A stretch of 64,000 bases of DNA from Thermophilibacter mediterraneus (GCF_900119385.1 NZ_FPKO01000009.1:333405-397404); one strand, 5' to 3'; counted from the stretch's first letter, positions 11,153 to 38,816 are shown. Made by a program: numbers and translations. Notes: generated by a model from the letters alone, not told the origin.

Positions 11153-11608
11153 CTACTCGTCTCGCCCAAACGTCTTGAGCCTCTCGAGGATGTGATTGAG
11201 CGAATCGTACATCTGCATGCGCTGACGGGCGGCCAGCTCCCCGCCAGCCTCGTCAAGCACTCGGTGAATGATGTCGTCGAGGGGACGCGCGGCCTCGCGG
11301 CCCTTCTCGGTCAGGCGAACGGGCGCGCGATACTTGGACGCCTCCTCGTCATCGGCGTCCCCCACCTCGACGAGGCCGTCCTCCGCGAGGTGGGCGACCG
11401 TGCGCGACATGGCGGCGCGGCTCACATCGATCAGGCGCGCGAGCTCGGACCCCGTGAGACCGTCAGGGTACTTGACCAGGTAGTAGAGACACATCACGTC
11501 CGAACCGCGAAACCCCAGGCGCCGGGCCTCGGCGGTCTTGATGCGCTGGATCTCCTTGTTCAGGGCGCTGATGATGCCGACGAAGTCCTCGAAGCGCTGT
11601 CCGGTCAC
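11153..11608 (-). CDS. MarR family transcriptional regulator
   Basis: A 151-residue MarR protein. The winged helix has the recognition helix LTGSELARLIDVSRAAMSRT (about 50-69) and a wing with DADDEEASKYRAPVRLTEKG; helices at both ends form the dimer interface. The GTG at 11608 is supported by GGGAGG 6 nt upstream on minus. First gene of an operon with degV. A near-palindromic AT-rich site at 11639-11656 lies in the promoter and is a plausible autoregulatory operator. Confidence 0.92.
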   Translation of the reverse strand: MTGQRFEDFVGIISALNKEIQRIKTAEARRLGFRGSDVMCLYYLVKYPDGLTGSELARLIDVSRAAMSRTVAHLAEDGLVEVGDADDEEASKYRAPVRLTEKGREAARPLDDIIHRVLDEAGGELAARQRMQMYDSLNHILERLKTFGRDE

Positions 11609-11638
11609 GCCGGGCCTCCCGTTCCCCCCGCCCGATAG

Positions 11639-11656
11639 ATGTTAACTAATCAACAT
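11639..11656. promoter_or_regulatory. Probable MarR operator
   Basis: An AT-rich inverted repeat, ATGTT at the left and AACAT at the right with an 8-bp centre, sits 30 bp upstream of the marR start in otherwise GC-rich DNA. Typical size and place for MarR autoregulation; not proven. Confidence 0.5.
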
Positions 11657-11844
11657 TATAGGGGGGAGGGGACACCTGGCAGGCACATCACGCGATAAGC
11701 ACAAGCGTCGGGGGCACGAGCGCCGCCAGTTCCGACCGATTGTTTCAACGAGAAAAACTCTCGCGCGCCATGACCGGGGCGCGCGTATCTTGTCTCCAAC
11801 ACCTTTGGCGCCGCATCGCGGCCGAGCACAGAGAGGAGCGCGCC

Positions 11845-11922
11845 ATGACCAAGACCGCCCGCATCGCTCGCACGTCTCAGAACTGGTGGTGGCGCAACTT
11901 CTCCTCACTCGGTCGATGGTGA
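11845..11922 (+). CDS. trp-type leader peptide with Trp-Trp-Trp
   Basis: A 25-codon ORF starts at ATG 11845 behind GAGAGGAG and ends at TGA 11920-11922. It has three consecutive Trp codons (11884-11892) preceded by SQN, and a last Trp codon just before the stop. The QNWWW core resembles known actinobacterial trpL peptides. It precedes an attenuator (11889-11988) and a TrpP-like ECF transporter operon. Its role would be to measure charged tRNA-Trp: stalling at WWW would favour read-through. The peptide itself need not function. Confidence 0.85.
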   Translation: MTKTARIARTSQNWWWRNFSSLGRW

Positions 11923-11988
11923 GCTCACGCGCCACGTCTCAATTCGCGCATGAGGGGCTCCCGGGCGACCGGGGCCCCTTCTTTTTTG
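11889..11988 (+). promoter_or_regulatory. Transcription attenuator of the ECF operon
   Basis: Four pairing segments are visible. Segment 1 (GTGGCGC, 11889-11895, in the Trp codons) pairs with 11929-11935. Segment 2 (GAGCTCACGCGC, 11921-11932) pairs with segment 3 (GCGCATGAGGGGCTC, 11946-11960) with a 3-nt bulge and one mismatch, giving an antiterminator. Segment 3 overlaps the terminator stem AGGGGC/GCCCCT (11953-11958/11974-11979), which is followed by CTTCTTTTTT. A ribosome stalled on the Trp codons masks segment 1, leaving segment 2 free to form the antiterminator; one reaching the stop covers segment 2, so the terminator forms. Confidence 0.82.
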
Positions 11989-12051
11989 CACCTCGCCATC
12001 TAACAAGAATCACTCAAGAGCATCACCCCTCTTCCCAGAAAGGAACTCGCC

Positions 12052-12621
12052 ATGTCTGACGCCACCACCTCCGCCGCCCGCACCGTTGCCACCGTCGACC
12101 GCGGCAAGCTCGACGTCCAGTCCCTCGTCCTTCTCGCCGTGCTCCTCGCCGCAGGCTTCATCCTCAACTTCACCGTGGGTCGCATGATCTCCAGCATCTC
12201 CGGCGGCCTCATCAGCCCCGAGTTCATCATCTCCGCGTTCTGCCTGACCATTCTGGTGGTGCGCCCCAACGTGGGGCAGGCCCTGATCATCGGCCTCATC
12301 TCGGCCGCCGTCATCCAGCTCACCACCACCTCGCCGTTCGTCGACTTTGCCGCGGAGGGCATCGCCGCCATGCTCATGGCCCTCATCGTGCGAGCCGGCA
12401 TGGGGACCCCGGCCAAGCGCCTCGTCCCGCTCGCGGGGTCGTTCGTCACCACCGTGGTCTCCGGCGTGATCTTCATGCTCATCCGCATCGCCATGGTTGG
12501 CGCCGCCGCCGAGCTCGCCGCGGCCATGCTGCCCGTGGTGGTGCTCTCCGCCGCCTTCAACGCCGTCCTCGTGAGCGCCCTCTACCTGCCCATCCGCAAG
12601 GCGCTCGGCCTGAGCGACTAG
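12052..12621 (+). CDS. TrpP-like ECF transporter S component
   Basis: A 189-residue hydrophobic protein with about six membrane helices after a polar N-terminus of ~25 residues. Layout and short motifs (VRPNVGQALIIGLISA, then LTTTSPF, and an AEGIAAML segment) resemble TrpP, the tryptophan transporter family with S-component topology. It is followed by a fused ECF ATPase and an EcfT gene, so it should be the substrate-binding S component of a dedicated importer. Tryptophan as substrate is supported mainly by the WWW leader and attenuator in front. AAGGA 7 nt upstream of ATG 12052 supports the start. Confidence 0.82.
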   Translation: MSDATTSAARTVATVDRGKLDVQSLVLLAVLLAAGFILNFTVGRMISSISGGLISPEFIISAFCLTILVVRPNVGQALIIGLISAAVIQLTTTSPFVDFAAEGIAAMLMALIVRAGMGTPAKRLVPLAGSFVTTVVSGVIFMLIRIAMVGAAAELAAAMLPVVVLSAAFNAVLVSALYLPIRKALGLSD

Positions 12622-12717
12622 CGCGCGGCGCATCGGCTCGGGACGGTGGCCGGACGGCCGGCGTCCCGAGTCGCGCCGACGCCCGACCCGCACGCCCAGA
12701 AAGGACCTCCCCCGCCC

Positions 12718-14514
12718 ATGAGCTCGCCCGCCATCATCAGCCTCGAAGACGTCTCGTTCTGCTACGGGGAGCGCGACGAGCGCGCCCTCGACGACGTCTC
12801 GCTCAAGATCTTCCCCGGTGAGTTCGTGGGCGTGACCGGCCCCTCGGGCGCCGGCAAGTCTACGCTGGCGGCGGTGCTCTCCGGCGCGGTGCCGCACCAC
12901 TATCGCGGAAGCCTCTACGGCGCCGCCATCGTTGACGGCCATGACACCTGCGAGGTCAGCCTCACCGACATCGCGCGAACCGTGGGAAGCGTGACGCAGG
13001 ACATCGACGCGCAGATGGTCGCCTCCGTGGTCGAGGACGAGCTGCTCTTCGGCCTGGAGAACTTCGGCGTCCCCCACGACCAGATCGAGGGACGCCTCTC
13101 CGGTGCGCTCGAGACCGTGGGCATCTCCGAGCTGCGCGACCGAGAGATCGCAACGCTCTCCGGCGGGCAGAAGCAGAAGGTGGCCGTCGCCGCGATCTTG
13201 GCCCTGCGCCCGCGCGTCCTGGTACTCGACGAGCCCACCGCCGCCCTCGACCCGGCCAGCTCCAAGCTCATCTTCCAGACGCTCTCCCAGCTCAACCGAA
13301 CCGAGGGCATCACCGTTGTGGTCATCGAGCAGAAGGTGGCGCTGCTCTCCGAGTTCTGCGGTCGCGTCCTCGTGATGGACGGTGGCCGCCTCGCGCTCGA
13401 CGGCACCCCGCGCGAGGTCTTCGCGCACGGCTCCGAGCTCAGGCGCATGGGCGTAGACAGTCCCCGGGTGGCGCGCGTCTCAAACAGCCTCGCCGAGCAC
13501 GGCGTCATCGAGCCCGGGCCGCCCTGCCTCAGCGTAGAGGAGGCCGAGGCGCTCATCAGGGGTCTTCTCGCCGGACGGGGGAAGAAGTCCCCGGTCGTGA
13601 CGAGTCGCTCCGCCCGGGACGACGCCCTGGGCGACGCCCCCTCGCACGCGTCTCCGCACGCGCCCGCGCCGCGCCGCGCCGAGGAGGCAGCCCCTCCCGT
13701 GGTTGACCTTCGTGACGTCAGCTTTGCCTACCCCGGGTCCGGCGACGGCGTGTCCCACGTGAACCTCGCGTTTCGTCCCGGAGAGCTCGTGGGCGTGGTC
13801 GGCCAGAACGGCGCCGGCAAGACCACCCTCACCAAGCTCCTGAACGGCCTGCTGCGACCCGCGTCCGGCGAGGTGCGCATCGCCGGAATCGACACGAGGG
13901 CCGTGCCGGTGAGCCGCATCGCCGCGCACGTCGCCACCCTCTTCCAGAACCCCGACCGACAGCTCTGCAAGGACACCGTGCTCGACGAGGTTGCCTTTGG
14001 ACTGGAGCTCCAGGGCGTGGACGGCGAGGGGGCGCGTCGAAGGGCCGCCGCCGCGATCGAGCGCTTCGGCCTTCCGGCGGGCGAGTCGCCCTTCTCGCTG
14101 TCCCGCGGACAGCGGCAGATGGTGGCGCTCGCCTCCGTGGTGGTGATGGAGCCGCAGGTCGTGCTGCTCGACGAGCCCACGAGCGGCCTGGACTACCGCG
14201 AGTGCATGACCGTCATGGAGACGGTGCGTGAGATGGCCGAGCGCGGGTGCGCCGTCATCATGGTCTGCCACGACATGGAGGTCGTCTCGGACTTCGCCGA
14301 GCGCGTCGTGGTCATGGCCGGCGGGCGGGTGCTCGCGGACGGACGCGCGGCGGAGGTCTTCTCGCGTCCGGAGGTCATGGAGGCGGCGAGCATCGAGGCG
14401 CCGCAGGTGGCGCAGCTCTCGCGCGCGCTGGCCCTGAGCTCGTCCGAGAAGTTCGCCGGCATCAGCCAGGTGTCCGGGATCGTCGACCTTGTTGAGGAGA
14501 TGGTGCGCCCGTGA
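12718..14514 (+). CDS. ECF transporter fused ATPase (EcfA-EcfA')
   Basis: A 598-residue protein with two ABC ATPase domains in one chain. Domain 1 (about 5-245): Walker A GPSGAGKST, signature LSGGQKQK, Walker B VLVLDEPTAALD. Domain 2 (about 325-570): Walker A GQNGAGKTT, signature LSRGQRQM, Walker B VVLLDEPTSGLD. Separate A and A' genes are more usual. The ATG at 12718 is chosen over longer in-frame codons because the ABC domain starts directly after it; AAAGGA lies 13 nt upstream. It energises the TrpP-like S component with the T protein encoded by the next gene, whose GTG start overlaps this stop by 4 nt. Confidence 0.93.
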   Translation: MSSPAIISLEDVSFCYGERDERALDDVSLKIFPGEFVGVTGPSGAGKSTLAAVLSGAVPHHYRGSLYGAAIVDGHDTCEVSLTDIARTVGSVTQDIDAQMVASVVEDELLFGLENFGVPHDQIEGRLSGALETVGISELRDREIATLSGGQKQKVAVAAILALRPRVLVLDEPTAALDPASSKLIFQTLSQLNRTEGITVVVIEQKVALLSEFCGRVLVMDGGRLALDGTPREVFAHGSELRRMGVDSPRVARVSNSLAEHGVIEPGPPCLSVEEAEALIRGLLAGRGKKSPVVTSRSARDDALGDAPSHASPHAPAPRRAEEAAPPVVDLRDVSFAYPGSGDGVSHVNLAFRPGELVGVVGQNGAGKTTLTKLLNGLLRPASGEVRIAGIDTRAVPVSRIAAHVATLFQNPDRQLCKDTVLDEVAFGLELQGVDGEGARRRAAAAIERFGLPAGESPFSLSRGQRQMVALASVVVMEPQVVLLDEPTSGLDYRECMTVMETVREMAERGCAVIMVCHDMEVVSDFAERVVVMAGGRVLADGRAAEVFSRPEVMEAASIEAPQVAQLSRALALSSSEKFAGISQVSGIVDLVEEMVRP

Positions 14515-15257
14515 CGAGCGTCATCGACTACGTGCCCGGAGACACGCTGCTCCATCGGCTGAACCCCGTCACCAAGCTTGCCGTCGCGGTGGCGGTGATC
14601 GTGGCGACGCTGCTCGCCGACACCTATCCGCTGCTCGTGGGCCTCATCGCGCTGACGTTGGCGCTCGGCGCGTACGCGGGGGCGCTGAGACGGTTGACGT
14701 CACTGCTCAAGGTGCTGGTGCCGCTGGCAGCGATCATGCTCGCGCTCCAGACCGCCGTGGTGCGGACGGGCGCCCCGGTCGCGGCCTGGATCACCGTGGA
14801 CGGCCTGGTCACGGGCTCCAAGGCGTGCCTGCGACTGCTCGGAGTTGCCATGCCGCTGATCTTGATGCTCTCGGTGACCAAGATGGGCGACCTCGCCAAC
14901 GCCTGCGTGGAGGTGCTGCACGTGCCGTACCGCTATGCGTTCACGTTCACGACCGCACTGCGATTCGTGCCCGTGTTCTCGCAGGAGATGACCGCCATCA
15001 TGGAGGCGCAGACCGCCCGGGGCGTCGAGTACGACACCCGCAACCCCTTCCGCAAGCTGCGGCTCATGCTGCCGATGTGCGTGCCGCTGCTGGTGAGCTC
15101 CGTCGGCAAGACGGACGCCACGGCGCTCGCCGCCGAGCAGCGCGGCTTCTACCTCCGCACGCGCGAGAGCAGCTATCGGCGCTACCCGCTCGTCGCGCGC
15201 GACTGGGCGACGCTCGCGTGCTGCGTCGCCCTCGTCGCGATCGGCGCCGCACTGTAG
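14511..15257 (+). CDS. ECF transporter T component (EcfT)
   Basis: A 248-residue CbiQ/EcfT membrane protein. Hydrophobic helices lie near 25-60, 65-90, 100-130 and at the C-terminus. The coupling helices carry the two Ala-Arg-Gly style motifs: EAQTARGVEYDT (about 170) and AEQRGFYLRTRE (about 213). It links the S component to the fused ATPase. GTG at 14511 overlaps the ATPase stop (GTGA), so the genes are translationally coupled. Third and last gene of the attenuator-controlled operon; two palindromic repeats follow. Confidence 0.93.
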   Translation: MTSVIDYVPGDTLLHRLNPVTKLAVAVAVIVATLLADTYPLLVGLIALTLALGAYAGALRRLTSLLKVLVPLAAIMLALQTAVVRTGAPVAAWITVDGLVTGSKACLRLLGVAMPLILMLSVTKMGDLANACVEVLHVPYRYAFTFTTALRFVPVFSQEMTAIMEAQTARGVEYDTRNPFRKLRLMLPMCVPLLVSSVGKTDATALAAEQRGFYLRTRESSYRRYPLVARDWATLACCVALVAIGAAL

Positions 15258-15294: not shown

Positions 15295-15342
15295 GTGCGG
15301 GTTATGGACGGTTTCGGAACCCAGAGTGTCCATAACCCGCAC
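15295..15342. repeat. GTGCGGGTT palindromic repeat, copy 1
   Basis: Perfect 15-bp arms (GTGCGGGTTATGGAC at 15295-15309; complement at 15328-15342) around an 18-nt loop. It follows the EcfT gene by about 37 bp. A second copy lies 13 bp downstream and a third after recQ. Stem bases differ between copies but stay paired. Confidence 0.88.
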
Positions 15343-15355
15343 GCGATTCAGGTGA

Positions 15356-15403
15356 GTGCGGGTTGCGGACGCTTTCGAGCTCCAGAACGACCGCAACCCG
15401 CAC
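15356..15403. repeat. GTGCGGGTT palindromic repeat, copy 2
   Basis: Perfect 13-bp arms (GTGCGGGTTGCGG at 15356-15368; complement at 15391-15403). Same 48-nt length and loop size as copies 1 and 3, with the inner stem changed from ATGG/CCAT to GCGG/CCGC. It lies between the convergent EcfT and lipoprotein genes. Confidence 0.86.
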
Positions 15404-15442
15404 GCTTATGTCGGGACTCGCCCGCCGGGAACCCCCGCGTCG

Positions 15443-16354
15443 TCAGTCATCCCAGTCGTCCCAGTCGTCCAGGTCGTCATCGCGGTCGTCGTCGCGGTCG
15501 TCGCGGTCGTCATCGCGGTCGTCCCGGTCGTCGCGGTCATCGTAGTCGTCGTCGTGGTCGTCGTCCCAGTCGTCGCGATCGTAGCGGTCGTCGTTCCAGT
15601 CGTCCCAGTCGTCGCGACCGTCCCAGTCGTCGTTGCCGTCGATGTCGGCCTCGAGCACCTTGCCGGAGCGCGCGTCGACCTCGTACTCGTACTCCACGCC
15701 GTTGGCGGAGAACTCCATCTCGTAGACGCCGTCGTCGAGCTCGTACTCGTGGTCGTTGAACGACGCCTCATTGAGCCCAAGCTGCGCGAGAACGATGTCC
15801 TTCGCCGCGTCGAGGCCAATGTAGCCGCGCTCGTCGAGCTGGTCGGGGGCAACGGCAAGCGCGTCCGACGCAAGTCCGAACGTCCCGACCTTCGAGCGAA
15901 CGTCGTCCTCGATCCCGCGCAGGAAGTCGTCGCCGGGGTAGCTCGAGCCCTGCTCGAGCTTGACCACCACGTTGCGGTCATGCCCGTCAACCGTCTGGTC
16001 GAAGTAACCGTCCCGATAGATCTCCTCCACGAGGTCGGAGACCACGTCGCGAGCCTCGCGCCCCTCGTAGCCAGCATAGTCGCTCACGACCCCGCGCCCC
16101 TCGTCGTTGACGCCCTCGACCTCGGTGACAAGCCCCTCGTCGTCGTACTCGACCTCGATCTCAGGGTTGACGCTCAGAAGCAACGTTCCCGCCGTCTTGA
16201 CCGTCTGGTCCTGAGGGGCGGCAACGCTCGCGCTCTGAGCCTGCGGAGAGCTCGACGGGGTGGTGCCGCAGCCGCTCAGCGCCGCCACAAGTGCCGCGCC
16301 CGCCATCGCGCCGAGCAGGATGCTCTTCGAGCTCGTGGTCCTCGTAGCCTTCAT
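15443..16354 (-). CDS. Lipoprotein with RsgI-like and PepSY domains, Asp-rich tail
   Basis: A 303-residue predicted lipoprotein: signal sequence with lipobox ALSGC (Cys ~29). A domain from about 57 to 125 (SVNPEIEVEYD ... GYFD) matches the extracellular middle domain of RsgI-type anti-sigma factors. A PepSY-like domain (about 170-235, ending EVDARSGKVLEADID) follows. The last ~65 residues are almost only Asp, Arg and Trp in DDRDD repeats. It is downstream of, and co-oriented with, sigI-rsgI (143-bp gap), and RsgI also ends in an acidic run. Exposed outside the membrane, it may bind cations or wall polymers; that is inference. GGAGG 5 nt upstream supports the start. Confidence 0.85.
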   Translation of the reverse strand: MKATRTTSSKSILLGAMAGAALVAALSGCGTTPSSSPQAQSASVAAPQDQTVKTAGTLLLSVNPEIEVEYDDEGLVTEVEGVNDEGRGVVSDYAGYEGREARDVVSDLVEEIYRDGYFDQTVDGHDRNVVVKLEQGSSYPGDDFLRGIEDDVRSKVGTFGLASDALAVAPDQLDERGYIGLDAAKDIVLAQLGLNEASFNDHEYELDDGVYEMEFSANGVEYEYEVDARSGKVLEADIDGNDDWDGRDDWDDWNDDRYDRDDWDDDHDDDYDDRDDRDDRDDDRDDRDDDRDDDLDDWDDWDD

Positions 16355-16497: not shown

Positions 16498-17322
16498 CTA
16501 GTCGTCATCGCCATCGTCATCGTCGCCATCGTCATCGTCGCCATCGTCATCGTCGTCATCGCTATCGTCGTCATCGCCGTCCTCGTCGTCATCGTCGTCA
16601 TCGCCGTCGTCGTCGGTCGTCGGAACGGGATGGGGCGCGGGGGAGGTCGTCACGCTCGAATCCTGGGACGTCGCGTCATCACCGAGGTCCTCGGGAGCCA
16701 CTCCGTCGGCATCGGAATCATCGTCCTCATCGCCCGCAGCGAGCTCGCCCGGACCGACCACGACAACGCGGTGCTCGAGGTGGACCTCAAGCTCGACCAC
16801 GAGACGGTCCTCGGTCGCCACCTTCCAGTCCTCGTCATCCGACTCAACCGTGACCTCAATCGTCCCGCCGTCGTCGAGGTACCCCTGATCCTCTGCCCTC
16901 GTGGCGAGGTCGTCGGAAACCTCGTCGACCGTGCGTCCGTAGTACGAGAAGCCCTCCACGAGCTCGACGCCGTCCTCGTTGTCGCCCGCGAGCCCGACCA
17001 CGCGATCAAGTCGGTTGACCTCCATGCTCACCTCGGGGTTGATGCGCATGTGCACCGTGCCGACCGGCGTGCCCCACACCACCGCCCCGCCCGCGAGCAC
17101 CGCGCACACCACCAGCGCCGCGGCAACCCCGGCAACAAGGCGCCCGCGGCCGCGCCGACGCGTCGAGAAGTCAATGACCTCCGTGTCGGGCTCGTCGAGC
17201 ACGACCACGTCCTCGACGCGCTGTCCCACCTCGTAGCCGAGATTGGGAACCTTCACGAAGCGCCCCTCCTCGTCGAGCGCCACGGCATAGCTCGCGGCGC
17301 ACTCCATGATCAGGTAGCTCAT
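16498..17322 (-). CDS. rsgI: RsgI-type anti-sigma factor with acidic tail
   Basis: A 274-residue single-pass protein. Residues 1-50 (MSYLIMECAASYAVALDEEG ...) form the RsgI N-terminal sigma-binding domain. A helix spans 61-84. The extracellular part starts with INPEVSMEVNRLDRV (94-108) and ends that domain at GYLDDG (~150). The last ~60 residues are almost pure Asp/Gly with Glu and Ser. RsgI proteins hold SigI at the membrane and release it on an outside signal such as wall stress or polysaccharide. The start overlaps the sigI stop by 4 nt (ATGA). A longer frame extends upstream but runs through sigI in another frame and is not real. Confidence 0.88.
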   Translation of the reverse strand: MSYLIMECAASYAVALDEEGRFVKVPNLGYEVGQRVEDVVVLDEPDTEVIDFSTRRRGRGRLVAGVAAALVVCAVLAGGAVVWGTPVGTVHMRINPEVSMEVNRLDRVVGLAGDNEDGVELVEGFSYYGRTVDEVSDDLATRAEDQGYLDDGGTIEVTVESDDEDWKVATEDRLVVELEVHLEHRVVVVGPGELAAGDEDDDSDADGVAPEDLGDDATSQDSSVTTSPAPHPVPTTDDDGDDDDDDEDGDDDDSDDDDDDGDDDDGDDDDGDDD

Positions 17323-18059
17323 CGCGCCTCGCCTCCCGATCGTCCCGGCATCCTGCAGAGGTGCCCGCGGATGATCTCGTATCCGTTGGTGTAAGCGACG
17401 AGAAGAGCCACGAGGTAGCGGCGGTGGCGCTCGAGCGTCTTGCGCTCCACGCCCGACCCGCGGGCGAGCTCGGCCAGCGGCAGCTTTCCCGTCTGGGCGA
17501 CGCGGTCGAGAAGGGCCTGGTCGCCGCGGGCATAGGCGAGCGCCCTGCCGCACGCCTCCAGCGTGCGACCCTGCTTCGGGCAGTTCTGCGCCACGTCCGC
17601 GAGCCCGATTCCCAGTCCCTCGAGCTGTCGCGCGAACGCGACGATCTCCCGGCGGCTCGCGGAGCGCCCCTCGCTCTCCCCGATCTCGTCGCGCTCGCAG
17701 GCAAGGTCGTCCACGAGCGCCCGACCATCGTCTCCCGCACCCCCGCGTGGCTCGTCGAGGGAGTCGACGCCCTCGTGGCGACGCTCGCGACGCCTGAAGT
17801 CGACCAGTCGGTTCCTGATGCTCAGCGCGGCCAGGGGCAGAAACGCCCCGCGCCCGCGGTCGTAGGCCAGAACGGCCTCGTGAAACGCGAACATGGCGAT
17901 TCCCAGCTCGTCGTCTGCGCCCTCGCGCGGGGGCCTGCCCATGAACTTTGCCGTCTCCGACTTGATAAACGGCAGGTAGTCGCGCACCAGGTCGTCCGCG
18001 GCGCGGGCGCTGCCCTTTGCCGCGCGAACCCGCGCGAGGAGCTCCTTCTCCCGTCTCAT
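17319..18059 (-). CDS. sigI: SigI family RNA polymerase sigma factor
   Basis: A 246-residue sigma-70-like factor of the SigI group. Region 2 includes DDLVRDYLPFIKSETAKFMG (about 21-40) and FHEAVLAYDRGRGAFLPLAA (about 65-84). A distinctive C-terminal domain has NCPKQGRTLEACGR and a helical segment with LARGSGVERKTLERHRRYL for promoter contact. ATG at 18059 is preferred over 18065, because AAGGG touches the latter but lies 6 nt from the former. Overlap with rsgI gives a coupled sigma/anti-sigma operon. Confidence 0.9.
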   Translation of the reverse strand: MRREKELLARVRAAKGSARAADDLVRDYLPFIKSETAKFMGRPPREGADDELGIAMFAFHEAVLAYDRGRGAFLPLAALSIRNRLVDFRRRERRHEGVDSLDEPRGGAGDDGRALVDDLACERDEIGESEGRSASRREIVAFARQLEGLGIGLADVAQNCPKQGRTLEACGRALAYARGDQALLDRVAQTGKLPLAELARGSGVERKTLERHRRYLVALLVAYTNGYEIIRGHLCRMPGRSGGEAR

Positions 18060-18287
18060 CGTCATCCCTTCGGCGATAGAGTGCGCACGGGCTCGTGCGC
18101 TTTCGGGGTGGCGGCAGAAACTGCCAGAACTTTTTTAGGGTATCTGCAGCGGAAGGCGTCCATGTAAGGAATGGGTAAGCGCCCGCCAGCGGCATGCCCC
18201 GTCGCGACCACACGGCCGGGCGAGTGCTCGTTTCTGTCCTGCCGCTCTGCCACAATGGTTCCCAAAGATCCCGTTCCGAGGAGAGGC

Positions 18288-35516: not shown

Positions 35517-35657
35517 TTTCAGGGCGGGGTGAAAGTCCCCACTGGCGGTAACGGGAGGCCGAGGCTCGAGCCTGCCCCCGAAGTCCGCGACCCGCAAAAA
35601 AGGCGGCTGACCCGGTGAGAGTCCGGGACCAACGGTCACAGTCCGGATGGAAGAAAC
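35517..35657 (+). promoter_or_regulatory. FMN riboswitch (RFN element)
   Basis: All RFN landmarks are present: GGGCGGGGTGAAAGTCCCC near the 5' end, GGCGGTAA, AGTCCGCGACCC, then CCGGTGAGAGTCCGGGACC, ACGGTCACAGTCCGGATG and AAGAAAC closing onto GTTTC. The SD GGAGG (35658-35662) lies immediately after the closing stem, and no terminator is seen, so translational control by SD sequestration is likely. TACACT at 35500 is a possible -10. High FMN should lower ribU translation. Confidence 0.95.
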
Positions 35658-35668
35658 GGAGGCCAGAC

Positions 35669-36253
35669 ATGGCTATCTCCACCCATGCATCAGGTTCGTC
35701 GCACGACACGCACGCCACCACCGCCGGGGGCGCGTGGTCCACGAGGCGCATCGCGACGACCGCGCTCTTCTGCGCGCTCGCGTTCGTGCTCACCTTCGTG
35801 GAGATTCCCATCTTCCCGCCCGCACCCTGGCTCATGTACGACCCGTCGGGCATCGTCGCGTTTGTCGCCGCCCTCGCCTTCGGTCCGAGCACGGGCGTCA
35901 TCGTCGTCGTGCTGCCGTGGGTGCTCAAGACCCTCTTCACGTTCAACGTCTGGGGGCACGTGATGGCCATCGTCGCGGGCCTCGCGCTCTGCGTCCCCGC
36001 CGCCCTCGTCGCGCGCCGCGTCAGCGGGACACGCGGACTCGCCCTCGGCATGGTCGTCGGCGCCGCCTGCGCCCTCGCGGCCTGCATCGCGGGCAACATC
36101 GTCGTGACGCCGCTCTACACCGCCGTCTCCACGGCCGACGTCATCGCCATGATCGTGCCGATCCTGCTGCCGTTCAACGCGCTCAAGATCGTCATCAACT
36201 GCGTCGTGACGGCGCTCATCCAGCGGCCCGTCGCGCAGGTGGTCTCCCGCTAG
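35669..36253 (+). CDS. ribU: Riboflavin ECF transporter S component RibU
   Basis: A 194-residue membrane protein with six helices after a polar N-terminus (~28 residues). Family features include the helix with VLTFVEIPIFPPAPWLMYDPSG (split around residue 55), a proline-rich loop, and the conserved NALKIVINCVVTALI end. It binds riboflavin outside and toggles it in when combined with the ECF module. GGAGG 6 nt before ATG 35669 overlaps the FMN riboswitch boundary. The ATPase gene follows 11 bp downstream, then EcfT. Confidence 0.93.
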   Translation: MAISTHASGSSHDTHATTAGGAWSTRRIATTALFCALAFVLTFVEIPIFPPAPWLMYDPSGIVAFVAALAFGPSTGVIVVVLPWVLKTLFTFNVWGHVMAIVAGLALCVPAALVARRVSGTRGLALGMVVGAACALAACIAGNIVVTPLYTAVSTADVIAMIVPILLPFNALKIVINCVVTALIQRPVAQVVSR

Positions 36254-36264
36254 CGGGGCGGCAC

Positions 36265-38013
36265 ATGACCGTCCCGCCCACCCCCATACGCCTCTCCCAC
36301 GTGAGCCTCGTTTACGAGGGCGGCGTCACCGCCCTCGACGACGTCTCCCTCACGATCGCGCGCGGCGAGCGGGTCTGCGTCCTCGGCGCCAACGGGTCGG
36401 GAAAGTCCACGCTCGCCTCGGTCGTCTGCGGTCTGCTCGCCCCGGACGAGGGCGAGGTCGAGCTCGTCGGCGAGCGCGTGTGCTCGGACGGCGCCCCGGA
36501 CATCGAGGCGTACCGGCGCGCGAGGCGCTCGCTCGGGCTCGTCTTCCAGAACCCCGACGACCAGATCGTCACGAGCGTCGTGGAGGACGACGTTGCGTTC
36601 GGCCCCGAGAACCTCGGGGTCCCACGCGACCAGATCGCGGAGCGCGTCGCCCGCGAGCTGCACCGCGTTGCCCTCGACGACTACGCGAAGGCCGATCCCT
36701 CCCGCCTCTCGGGCGGGCAGAAGCAGCGCGTCGCCATCGCCGGCGCGCTTGCCATGGAGCCCGCCGTGCTCGTGCTCGACGAGCCGGGCTCGCTCCTCGA
36801 CGTGCGCGGGCGCTCCGCCATCCTGCGCGTGATGGGGCGCCTCGCCCGGACGGGCACCACGCTCGTCCACGTGACCCACTTCATGGAGGAGGCCGTCGAG
36901 GCCGACCGCGTCATCGTGCTCGACCGCGGGCGCATCGTCCTCCAGGGCACGCCCGACGAGGTCTTCACGCACGGCCCCGGGCTCGCCGGGCTCGGCCTCG
37001 AGGTCCCCTTCGCCGCGCGCCTCTCCCAGCGCCTCGGCCTCCCCTGGACCTGCGACGAGCGCACCCTCCTCCGTGAATTGGGGCCGGGCCCCGATTCACG
37101 GAAGCCCTTTGCGCTCTCTGGATCCGGCACCAAGCGTGTGCGTGAGCCGGGACCGGACCCCGTTTTGCAGGTCGAGCGCGTGTCCTTCTCGTATGACGGG
37201 CGGACGCGGGCGCTCGAGGACGTCTCGTTTGCGGTCCCCCGCGGCACCTCGACGGCCATCATCGGCCAGACCGGCTCGGGCAAGTCGACGCTGCTGCGAC
37301 TGCTCTGCGGGCTCGAGACGCCCGACGCCGGCCGCGTGGTCGTCGGAGGAAACGACACGCGGACCCGCCGCGGGCGCAAGGCCGCGCGCCGGGCCGTGGG
37401 ATACGTCATGCAGCACCCCGAGCGCCAGCTCTTCGCCGAGTCCGTGGAGAAGGACGTGGCGTTTGGCCCCCGCAACCTTCGCCTCCCCGAGGACGAGGTC
37501 GACCGTCGCGTGAACGCCGCCCTCGAGCTCGTCGGGCTCGAGGGGAGGCGCTCGGCGTCCCCGTTCACGCTCTCCGGCGGACAGCGCCGCCTCTGCGCGC
37601 TCGCGGGCATCCTCGCGATGGAGCCCGAGGTCCTCATCCTCGACGAGCCGACCGCAGGACTCGACCCGCGGGGCCGCGCCCTGCTCCGGCGCGTCCTCGA
37701 GCGCCTGCGCGAGCTCGGCATCACCCTCGTCCAGGTCACGCACTCGATGGAGGACGCCGCGCGCGCCGACCGAGTCGTCGCGCTCGACCAGTCGCGCCTC
37801 GTCACCGTCGGCACCCCGCGCGAGGTCTTCTCACGCGACAACGAGGAGCGTCTCTCCCGAGGCGGCCTCGGCATCCCCCGCTCCCTGCGCGTCGCGCGAG
37901 AGCTCGAGCGGCGCGGCTGGCCCTCGCTCGGGGACCCCCTCACCACCGACCAGCTCGTCGGCGCCCTGGGCGAGCGCGGCCTCCCCCTCCCTTCCCGCGG
38001 AGGTGAGCCCTGA
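36265..38013 (+). CDS. ECF transporter fused ATPase (riboflavin operon)
   Basis: A 582-residue double ABC protein. Domain 1 (about 7-255): Walker A GANGSGKST, signature LSGGQKQR, Walker B VLVLDEPGSLLD (GSLLD rather than TAGLD). Domain 2 (about 300-540): Walker A GQTGSGKST, signature LSGGQRRL, Walker B VLILDEPTAGLD. The linker contains two palindromic repeat copies (37071-37101 and near 37143) that code for PGPDS and PGPDP. ATG 36265 follows ribU by 11 bp, and the stop overlaps the EcfT start (TGATG). Confidence 0.93.
   Translation: MTVPPTPIRLSHVSLVYEGGVTALDDVSLTIARGERVCVLGANGSGKSTLASVVCGLLAPDEGEVELVGERVCSDGAPDIEAYRRARRSLGLVFQNPDDQIVTSVVEDDVAFGPENLGVPRDQIAERVARELHRVALDDYAKADPSRLSGGQKQRVAIAGALAMEPAVLVLDEPGSLLDVRGRSAILRVMGRLARTGTTLVHVTHFMEEAVEADRVIVLDRGRIVLQGTPDEVFTHGPGLAGLGLEVPFAARLSQRLGLPWTCDERTLLRELGPGPDSRKPFALSGSGTKRVREPGPDPVLQVERVSFSYDGRTRALEDVSFAVPRGTSTAIIGQTGSGKSTLLRLLCGLETPDAGRVVVGGNDTRTRRGRKAARRAVGYVMQHPERQLFAESVEKDVAFGPRNLRLPEDEVDRRVNAALELVGLEGRRSASPFTLSGGQRRLCALAGILAMEPEVLILDEPTAGLDPRGRALLRRVLERLRELGITLVQVTHSMEDAARADRVVALDQSRLVTVGTPREVFSRDNEERLSRGGLGIPRSLRVARELERRGWPSLGDPLTTDQLVGALGERGLPLPSRGGEP
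37071..37101. repeat. Palindrome inside the ECF ATPase linker
   Basis: Arms CCGTGAATTGGGGCC (37071-37085) and GGCCCCGATTCACGG (37087-37101) pair with one G-T wobble. It lies in the linker between the two ATPase domains, in frame. A related palindrome follows prs at 53631-53660 and a degenerate copy lies about 70 bp downstream in the same linker. Confidence 0.8.
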
Positions 38014-38816
38014 TGGCGCTTCGCATCTCGATCGGACAGTACTACGCGGCCGACTCGCCCGTCCACGCGCTCGACGCGCGCGTCAAGCTCTGGTGCGTGC
38101 TCGCCACCCTCGTCGCGATCTTCTGCGCGGCGGGGCCGGCCCAGCTCGCGCTCGCGCTCGCCTTCGTCGCCGCGCTGCTCGTCGCGGCGCGCGTTCCGGC
38201 CGGCCGCGTCCTGGCCTCGATCAGGCCGCTCATGGTCTTTCTCGCCGTCCTCTCGCTCTTCAACCTGCTCTTCGTGAGGACGGGGGAGGTCGTGGCGTCC
38301 CTGGGACCGCTCAGCGTGACCGCGGGGGGCGTCTCGGCCGCGGTGATCTACACGGCGCGCTTCGCCCTCGCACTCGTGACGGGCTCGATCGTCATGCTCA
38401 CGACCACCCCCACGCAGCTCGCGGACGCCTTCGACCGCATGCTCTCCCCCCTCTCGCGCATCGGCCTGCCCGGCCACGAGATCGCCATGGTCTTCTCGCT
38501 CATGATGCGCTTCGTCCCCACCCTCGCCGACGAGGCCTCGGCGATCATCGACGCCCAGTCCCTGCGAGGCGGCGCCTTCGACGAGGGCGGCCCCGTCCGG
38601 CGCGTCCGCTCGATCGTCCCCGTGGTGGTGGCCCTGCTCGCCAGCGGCCTGCGCCACGCCGACGGGCTCTCGCGCGCGCTCGACGCCCGCTGCTACGAGG
38701 GGGGCTCCGGCAGGACGCACCTCCACGAGCCGAGCATCGGCCCTCGCGAGCTTATCGCCGCGGCGCTGACCGCCGCCTTCGTCGCCCTCCTCGCCCTCCT
38801 CGGGGCCCTCGCATAG
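38013..38816 (+). CDS. ECF transporter T component (riboflavin operon)
   Basis: A 267-residue EcfT/CbiQ membrane protein. Helices lie near 30-60, 65-90, 108-130, 200-215 and 240-265. Coupling motifs: DAQSLRGGAFDE (about 185) and ALDARCYEGG (about 225), the two Ala/Arg-Gly elements that touch the ATPases. It completes the ribU-ATPase-T operon and differs from the T component near 14.5 kb. The start overlaps the ATPase stop by 1 nt. Confidence 0.93.
   Translation: MALRISIGQYYAADSPVHALDARVKLWCVLATLVAIFCAAGPAQLALALAFVAALLVAARVPAGRVLASIRPLMVFLAVLSLFNLLFVRTGEVVASLGPLSVTAGGVSAAVIYTARFALALVTGSIVMLTTTPTQLADAFDRMLSPLSRIGLPGHEIAMVFSLMMRFVPTLADEASAIIDAQSLRGGAFDEGGPVRRVRSIVPVVVALLASGLRHADGLSRALDARCYEGGSGRTHLHEPSIGPRELIAAALTAAFVALLALLGALA

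Follow-up and report, generated by a model that had tools for sequence, protein, structure and literature searches.

A predicted tryptophan leader-peptide attenuator on an ECF importer operon of Thermophilibacter mediterraneus, and its exchange with T-boxes among Coriobacteriales

A 64,000-nucleotide stretch of Thermophilibacter mediterraneus DNA (the window; positions are counted from its first letter) contains, at 11845–15257, an energy-coupling factor (ECF) importer operon behind a short leader open reading frame (ORF) with tandem tryptophan (Trp) codons and a terminator. The host is an Atopobiaceae genome of the Olsenella/Thermophilibacter type, a gut-type actinobacterium. Judged from sequence and comparison, this region is most probably a ribosome-mediated transcription attenuator that responds to the charging of Trp-tRNA and governs a dedicated ECF Trp importer in a predicted Trp auxotroph. 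Attenuation by Trp-tRNA charging, taken by itself, appears very probable, and Trp as the main cargo of the importer is probable. The sequence and its comparison with orthologous loci reveal all parts of the switch, their conservation, covariation in its protector stem (1:2) and its exchange with Trp T-boxes.

Results

The leader ORF (11845–11922; plus strand, like all features of the leader, switch and operon below) encodes MTKTARIARTSQNWWWRNFSSLGRW in exactly 25 codons, followed by TGA, and is preceded by the Shine-Dalgarno sequence AGGAG (11834–11838), which is conserved in relatives. Trp codons occupy positions 14–16 and 25, the first three being tandem UGG codons (11884–11892) that are present in all 94 loci collected, so that a translatable ORF with tandem Trp codons lies ahead of the switch. 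The first-pass annotation of this stretch had described a 25-codon leader with three Trp codons in a row and a fourth before the stop. Its length was confirmed and the triplet is kept in orthologues, but the fourth codon is not conserved: TGG was found there in only 9 of the 52 non-redundant leader sequences used for codon and duplex counts (others have CGG, TCG or CTG). As a sensor, the fourth Trp codon was rejected because a ribosome stalled there would cover the antiterminator arm, and it looks incidental.

Homologues of the first importer gene, encoding the substrate-binding (S) component, were matched in 128 of the 199 genomes of the order Coriobacteriales; the relatives with names (79) include Olsenella, Thermophilibacter, Collinsella, Enorma and others. 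The 94 leaders examined comprise 81 distinct sequences (140 bases counted from the Trp codons) and share the pattern N-W-W-W-R/H-...-G-R/Q-x-stop at constant distance, with a variable N-terminal half. Weaker leaders were seen in G175 (WW) and G155 (L168; W-A-W). Pairing segments and Trp triplet are both conserved in orthologous leaders, and the loss of either, named beforehand as the contrary outcome, did not appear. One record, L047 (named Slackia isoflavoniconvertens), has an S component 72% identical to that of the window and nested among Collinsella/Olsenella sequences, a placement due to transfer or to a contaminated contig.

Two stems and an antiterminator can be drawn from the RNA. Segment 1 of the protector stem, GUGGCGC (11889–11895), pairs with segment 2, GCGCCAC (11929–11935). 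The 5′ arm of the antiterminator, CUCGGUCG-A-UGG-U-GAGCUC (11908–11926), consists of the last codons of the leader and its stop; the 3′ arm (11955–11973) consists of the 5′ arm of the terminator, its loop and the start of its 3′ arm. The terminator hairpin (segments 3:4, 11952–11980) and its T-run (11979–11987) form an intrinsic terminator between leader and first gene, and the conserved antiterminator and protector stem belong to mutually exclusive structures. It had been proposed that segments pairing 1:2, 2:3 and 3:4 lie within the 70 bases after the leader. The 1:2, antiterminator and 3:4 pairings are supported; segment 1 and the antiterminator 5′ arm, however, lie inside the ORF, and the antiterminator is longer than claimed, its pairing crossing the terminator loop and entering the 3′ arm of that hairpin.

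Folding of 11840–12000 gave a more stable structure than any of 200 shuffles that kept the dinucleotide composition (z −3.07). A first alignment given to RNAalifold returned almost nothing (some sequences were miscut, and alternative pairings conflict) and was replaced by state-wise folds and by duplex tests of cognate and non-cognate arms. Folding of 49 orthologues in three states (no ribosome, ribosome stalled at the third Trp codon, ribosome at the stop), with growing 3′ ends in six of them, gave a consistent picture of protector, antiterminator and terminator. In the window, the antiterminator has 17 pairs; together with the hairpin that it encloses, it reaches about −32 kcal/mol at the point where the terminator 3′ arm is almost complete. 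No Rfam family reached its curated score on 11400–12300; the best match, BjrC68, was discarded as a chance match to the terminator.

Covariation was seen in the 1:2 stem, where 78% of cells were paired, compared with 30–59% when the arms were slid, and 20 cells had changed on both sides, a count reached by 0 of 500 shuffles. Across the 52 sequences, the antiterminator duplex had a mean of −21.4 kcal/mol, against −13.0 kcal/mol with a shuffled arm. Arms re-paired between species were less stable: permutations as good as the cognate pairing numbered 43 of 5000 for the antiterminator and 0 of 5000 for 1:2. Where three sequences (L112, L116 and L121) depart from the conserved arm, the opposite antiterminator arm carries matching changes. 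Two codons ahead of the fourth Trp, the Gly codon is GGT in 51 of the 52 sequences although the window operon prefers GGC (53 GGC, 6 GGT), which argues for selection on the RNA rather than on the peptide.

These tests also contradict chance as an explanation, by which a Trp triplet and a GC-rich hairpin in a GC-rich genome would have no regulatory meaning. By itself TGGTGGTGG is indeed not rare, with four plus-strand and four minus-strand sites in the window, and weak covariance-model matches outside the order (31–37 bits, wider phylum sample) were rejected as plain terminators without a Trp leader. Beyond chance is that 94 orthologous loci keep TGGTGGTGG together with the stop, the arms and the terminator, and that this arrangement recurs at one position of one operon across two families and outside them. 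The probability left to chance is negligible.

We infer that the leader is translated and that the RNA would switch between three states. When Trp is scarce, the ribosome would stall at the UGG triplet and hide segment 1, leaving the arm of last codons and stop free; this arm would pair with the terminator, from its 5′ arm across the loop to the first bases of its 3′ arm, RNA polymerase would read on and the importer would be made. When Trp is plentiful, a ribosome at the stop codon would cover the arm, the terminator would form and importer transcription would stop. With no ribosome, the Trp codons would pair with 11929–11935, enclosing the arm, and the terminator would again form.

A second, unrelated sensor occupies the same place elsewhere in the order. 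Most Eggerthellaceae and some minor families have an orthologous S-A-T operon with a T-box and no Trp leader. RF00230 matched one locus with an E value of 5.5e-12 and every one of 9 others tested with values between 4e-11 and 3e-15; scores were 58–78 bits, all below the curated 93 of Rfam. The specifier is UGG in 34 of 35 T-box loci (a pattern match gives 33; L137 reads AATGGTTCGCC at that position), and 34 of 35 have a UGGC bulge. Bacterial tRNATrp has G at the discriminator position, and the UGGC bulge fits a tRNA with that discriminator. When regulator type was placed on an S-component tree, at least 4 changes were needed (shuffled mean about 26), a count that holds for that tree only because it is a quick tree with many open forks; well-supported branches force at least 2 to 3. 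Trp leaders were found inside the T-box clade in G063, G002 and G139. The tree did not include the two S-A gene fusions of family f6 (L129, L130). That two unrelated tRNATrp sensors precede one importer operon supports, on regulatory grounds, the substrate proposed for this ECF branch, and the comparison strongly supports Trp as the regulatory signal.

The operon had been annotated as a complete ECF importer, and this was confirmed with correct gene coordinates. The S component (12052–12621, 189 amino acids) is TrpP-like, with six main helices and an AxxxA motif in helix 1 whose A29 and A33 are invariant. It is followed by a fused double ECF ATPase (A1A2; 12718–14514; TIGR04520, 444 bits, and TIGR04521, 419 bits, both above cut-off) and a T component of the CbiQ family (14511–15257; PF02361, 84 bits), so that S, two ATPase domains and T are encoded together, as in group I-type systems. 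The order S-A-T is kept in 127 of 128 orthologous loci. The genome has four T-type ECF genes, so sharing of the importer's T component is not needed, though it may occur. A second ECF system lies at 35647–38816. It comprises a 788-amino-acid protein, in which about 220 N-terminal residues precede two ABC domains, and behind it a CbiQ-type T component; the N-terminal residues may represent a fused S component.

Among 28 orthologues of the S component, 19 match PF17099 (TrpP) and no other Pfam family, and orthologues above the PF17099 cut-off occur in 10 of 99 genomes of the class (52 bits in G042). The grouping with TrpP proposed earlier thus held, and no clustering with another substrate family appeared. 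The predicted structure has a mean predicted local distance difference test score (pLDDT) of 86, and its eight best PDB matches are all ECF S components (ThiT, PanT, RibU and one unnamed; template modeling scores 0.47–0.65). A search of solved structures with the S profile gave no match at E ≤ 1. Two tandem S components stand between leader and ATPase gene in G072, G112, G132, G152, G184, G060, G046, G010 and others; the second is about 48% identical to the query and may widen or change the substrate range.

A covariance model built from the leader and terminator was searched in the 199 genomes and matched in 90. Besides the importer, the leader heads a sodium symporter gene of the SNF/NSS family (G165, G192, G063), TrpB2-like synthase genes (G010, G170), and operons in which an S-A importer fusion stands behind TrpB2 (G006, G035). 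The TrpB2 matches, with scores similar to those of the rejected matches outside the order, were accepted only because the WWW peptide and the downstream gene fit. In G115 and G151 no cleanly open gene follows the match, and a match near a phosphofructokinase-like gene in G179 was rejected as a plain terminator without a Trp leader. There is an even chance that the leader-attenuator is a portable cassette, recruited by four arrangements (TrpP-ECF, TrpB2-like, TrpB2 with TrpP-ECF, and NSS) and repeatedly swapped with tRNATrp T-boxes at the same importer operon within one order.

In the window genome the model finds the importer operon alone. The same genome also has a second WWW leader, MTSRPRIATTIPAPAGERAWWWTRTTLIPG followed by a stop, with a terminator before a 5′ remnant of trpB2 (L226:1483–1946) that runs into unrelated sequence and adjoins a transposase gene. 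TrpA was not found in a search of this genome, which is 99.6% complete; with trpB2 truncated as well, Trp auxotrophy is predicted, and the host is probably unable to make Trp. Across the order, 20 of the 128 genomes that carry the importer have TrpA, compared with 26 of the 71 that lack it (Fisher p 0.0014, kinship ignored).

Trp as cargo is read from the two regulators and the gene neighbours, and the same neighbours bear on another reading, in which the switch senses Trp-tRNA and the importer carries a precursor or relative of Trp (indole, a different aromatic compound or several of them) from which Trp would be made or by which it would be spared. The importer does share an operon with a TrpB2-like synthase, able to use indole, in two genomes, and where a second tandem S component is present substrates may differ. 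Indole, however, crosses membranes unaided, the S component is homologous to TrpP, 108 of the 128 importer-bearing genomes lack TrpA, and the truncated trpB2 of the window genome would leave indole unusable by that enzyme. We consider such a cargo unlikely.

Upstream of the leader, a candidate −10 box TATCTT (11786–11791) is a consensus match conserved in an alignment of 13 close relatives; the −35 sequence TTGCGC of the relatives is degenerate in the window. Just upstream of this promoter lies an inverted repeat, GTTTC-N7-GAAAAC (11742–11758), which precedes 17 of the 95 leaders, almost exclusively in the clade of the window, and is a possible operator. Palindromic intergenic repeats, GTGCGGGTTGCGGACG...GTCCGCAACCCGCAC, occur at 15295–15405 and at L226:1270–1440 of the same genome. 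Two minus-strand genes (15443–16354 and 16498–17400) encode proteins with long Asp-rich C-terminal tails, the second adjoining a sigma-factor-like gene (17319–18065).

Discussion

Several observations weigh against a Trp-responsive attenuator on a Trp importer. The invariance of the WWW triplet is partly by construction, because the 94 leaders were gathered by searching for it. In G136 (L118) and G120 (L119), both of which have TrpA, the terminator is kept and a Trp leader could not be recognised. Once complete, the terminator is at least as stable as the antiterminator, and the switch must therefore be kinetic. Cognate antiterminator arms gain a small margin of 0.6 kcal/mol, owing to the strong conservation of their sequence. 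On the protein side, the S component of the window scores 20 bits against PF17099, below the 27.2 cut-off, and is filed as a TrpP-like homologue, not a Pfam TrpP member; the PDB matches of its fold have E values of 0.13–1.3, all above 0.1.

The weak or missing Trp codons of G155, G120 and G136 would also suit a leader acting by another route, in which translating the short ORF would alter access by Rho, stability of the RNA or re-initiation and the hairpin would be a simple constitutive terminator. Conserved, covarying and exclusive pairings with a T-run terminator fit classical attenuation instead, and T-boxes, which commonly act on terminators, replace the leader at orthologous operons. We hold such another route to be very improbable, and prefer attenuation by Trp-tRNA charging.

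The mechanism is of a known kind. Attenuation at E. coli trpL follows a three-state logic of stalled ribosome, ribosome at the stop and no ribosome, and the switch in the window would follow the same logic; unlike in trpL, most of its antiterminator 5′ arm falls within the ORF, the stop codon forms part of that arm, and its target is a transporter. B. subtilis TrpP/YhaG is regulated by TRAP. It belongs to the PF17099 protein family and is under Trp-linked control, like the S component here, whereas in Coriobacteriales a leader peptide or T-box takes the place of TRAP and the S gene stands beside its own A and T genes.

Among actinobacteria, classical Trp attenuation has been described for trp operons and trpS of Corynebacterium and Streptomyces (PMC1262725). 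These likewise have two or three tandem UGG codons, a GC-rich terminator with a U-tract and an antiterminator, but control Trp biosynthesis or trpS rather than an importer. The conserved block of the window type, CGGUCGAYSGUGAGUC with GGCUCCCGG...GACCG, differs from theirs, and in the samples searched it did not occur outside Coriobacteriales. Trp T-boxes on NSS transporters of the Bacillus cereus group (PMC2494555) place Trp import under control of tRNATrp charging, as at the orthologous ECF operons, and do so by direct tRNA binding without a leader peptide, unlike the switch in the window. Exchange between T-box and leader peptide is known for hisS in Firmicutes (PMC2965389), the same exchange of sensor types with another amino acid, gene class and phylum. 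The protein called TrpP in C. glutamicum (Cg3357) shares the name alone: it is SdpI-like, has three helices and has been judged not to act as a transporter (PMC11995493), and it was rejected as a functional relative.

New here are a complete ECF importer as the target, an antiterminator arm that spans the stop codon and T-box exchange at the same operon. The open-access literature searched yielded no account of leader-peptide attenuation at an ECF importer or among Coriobacteriia; subscription papers lay outside the search, and a prior description may exist. The importer is a candidate route by which gut Coriobacteriia, many of them apparently without Trp synthesis, may compete for dietary Trp. 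Exchange of regulators within one order offers a case for studying the replacement of one RNA switch by another, and a so far uncharacterised ECF branch now has regulatory evidence for its substrate.

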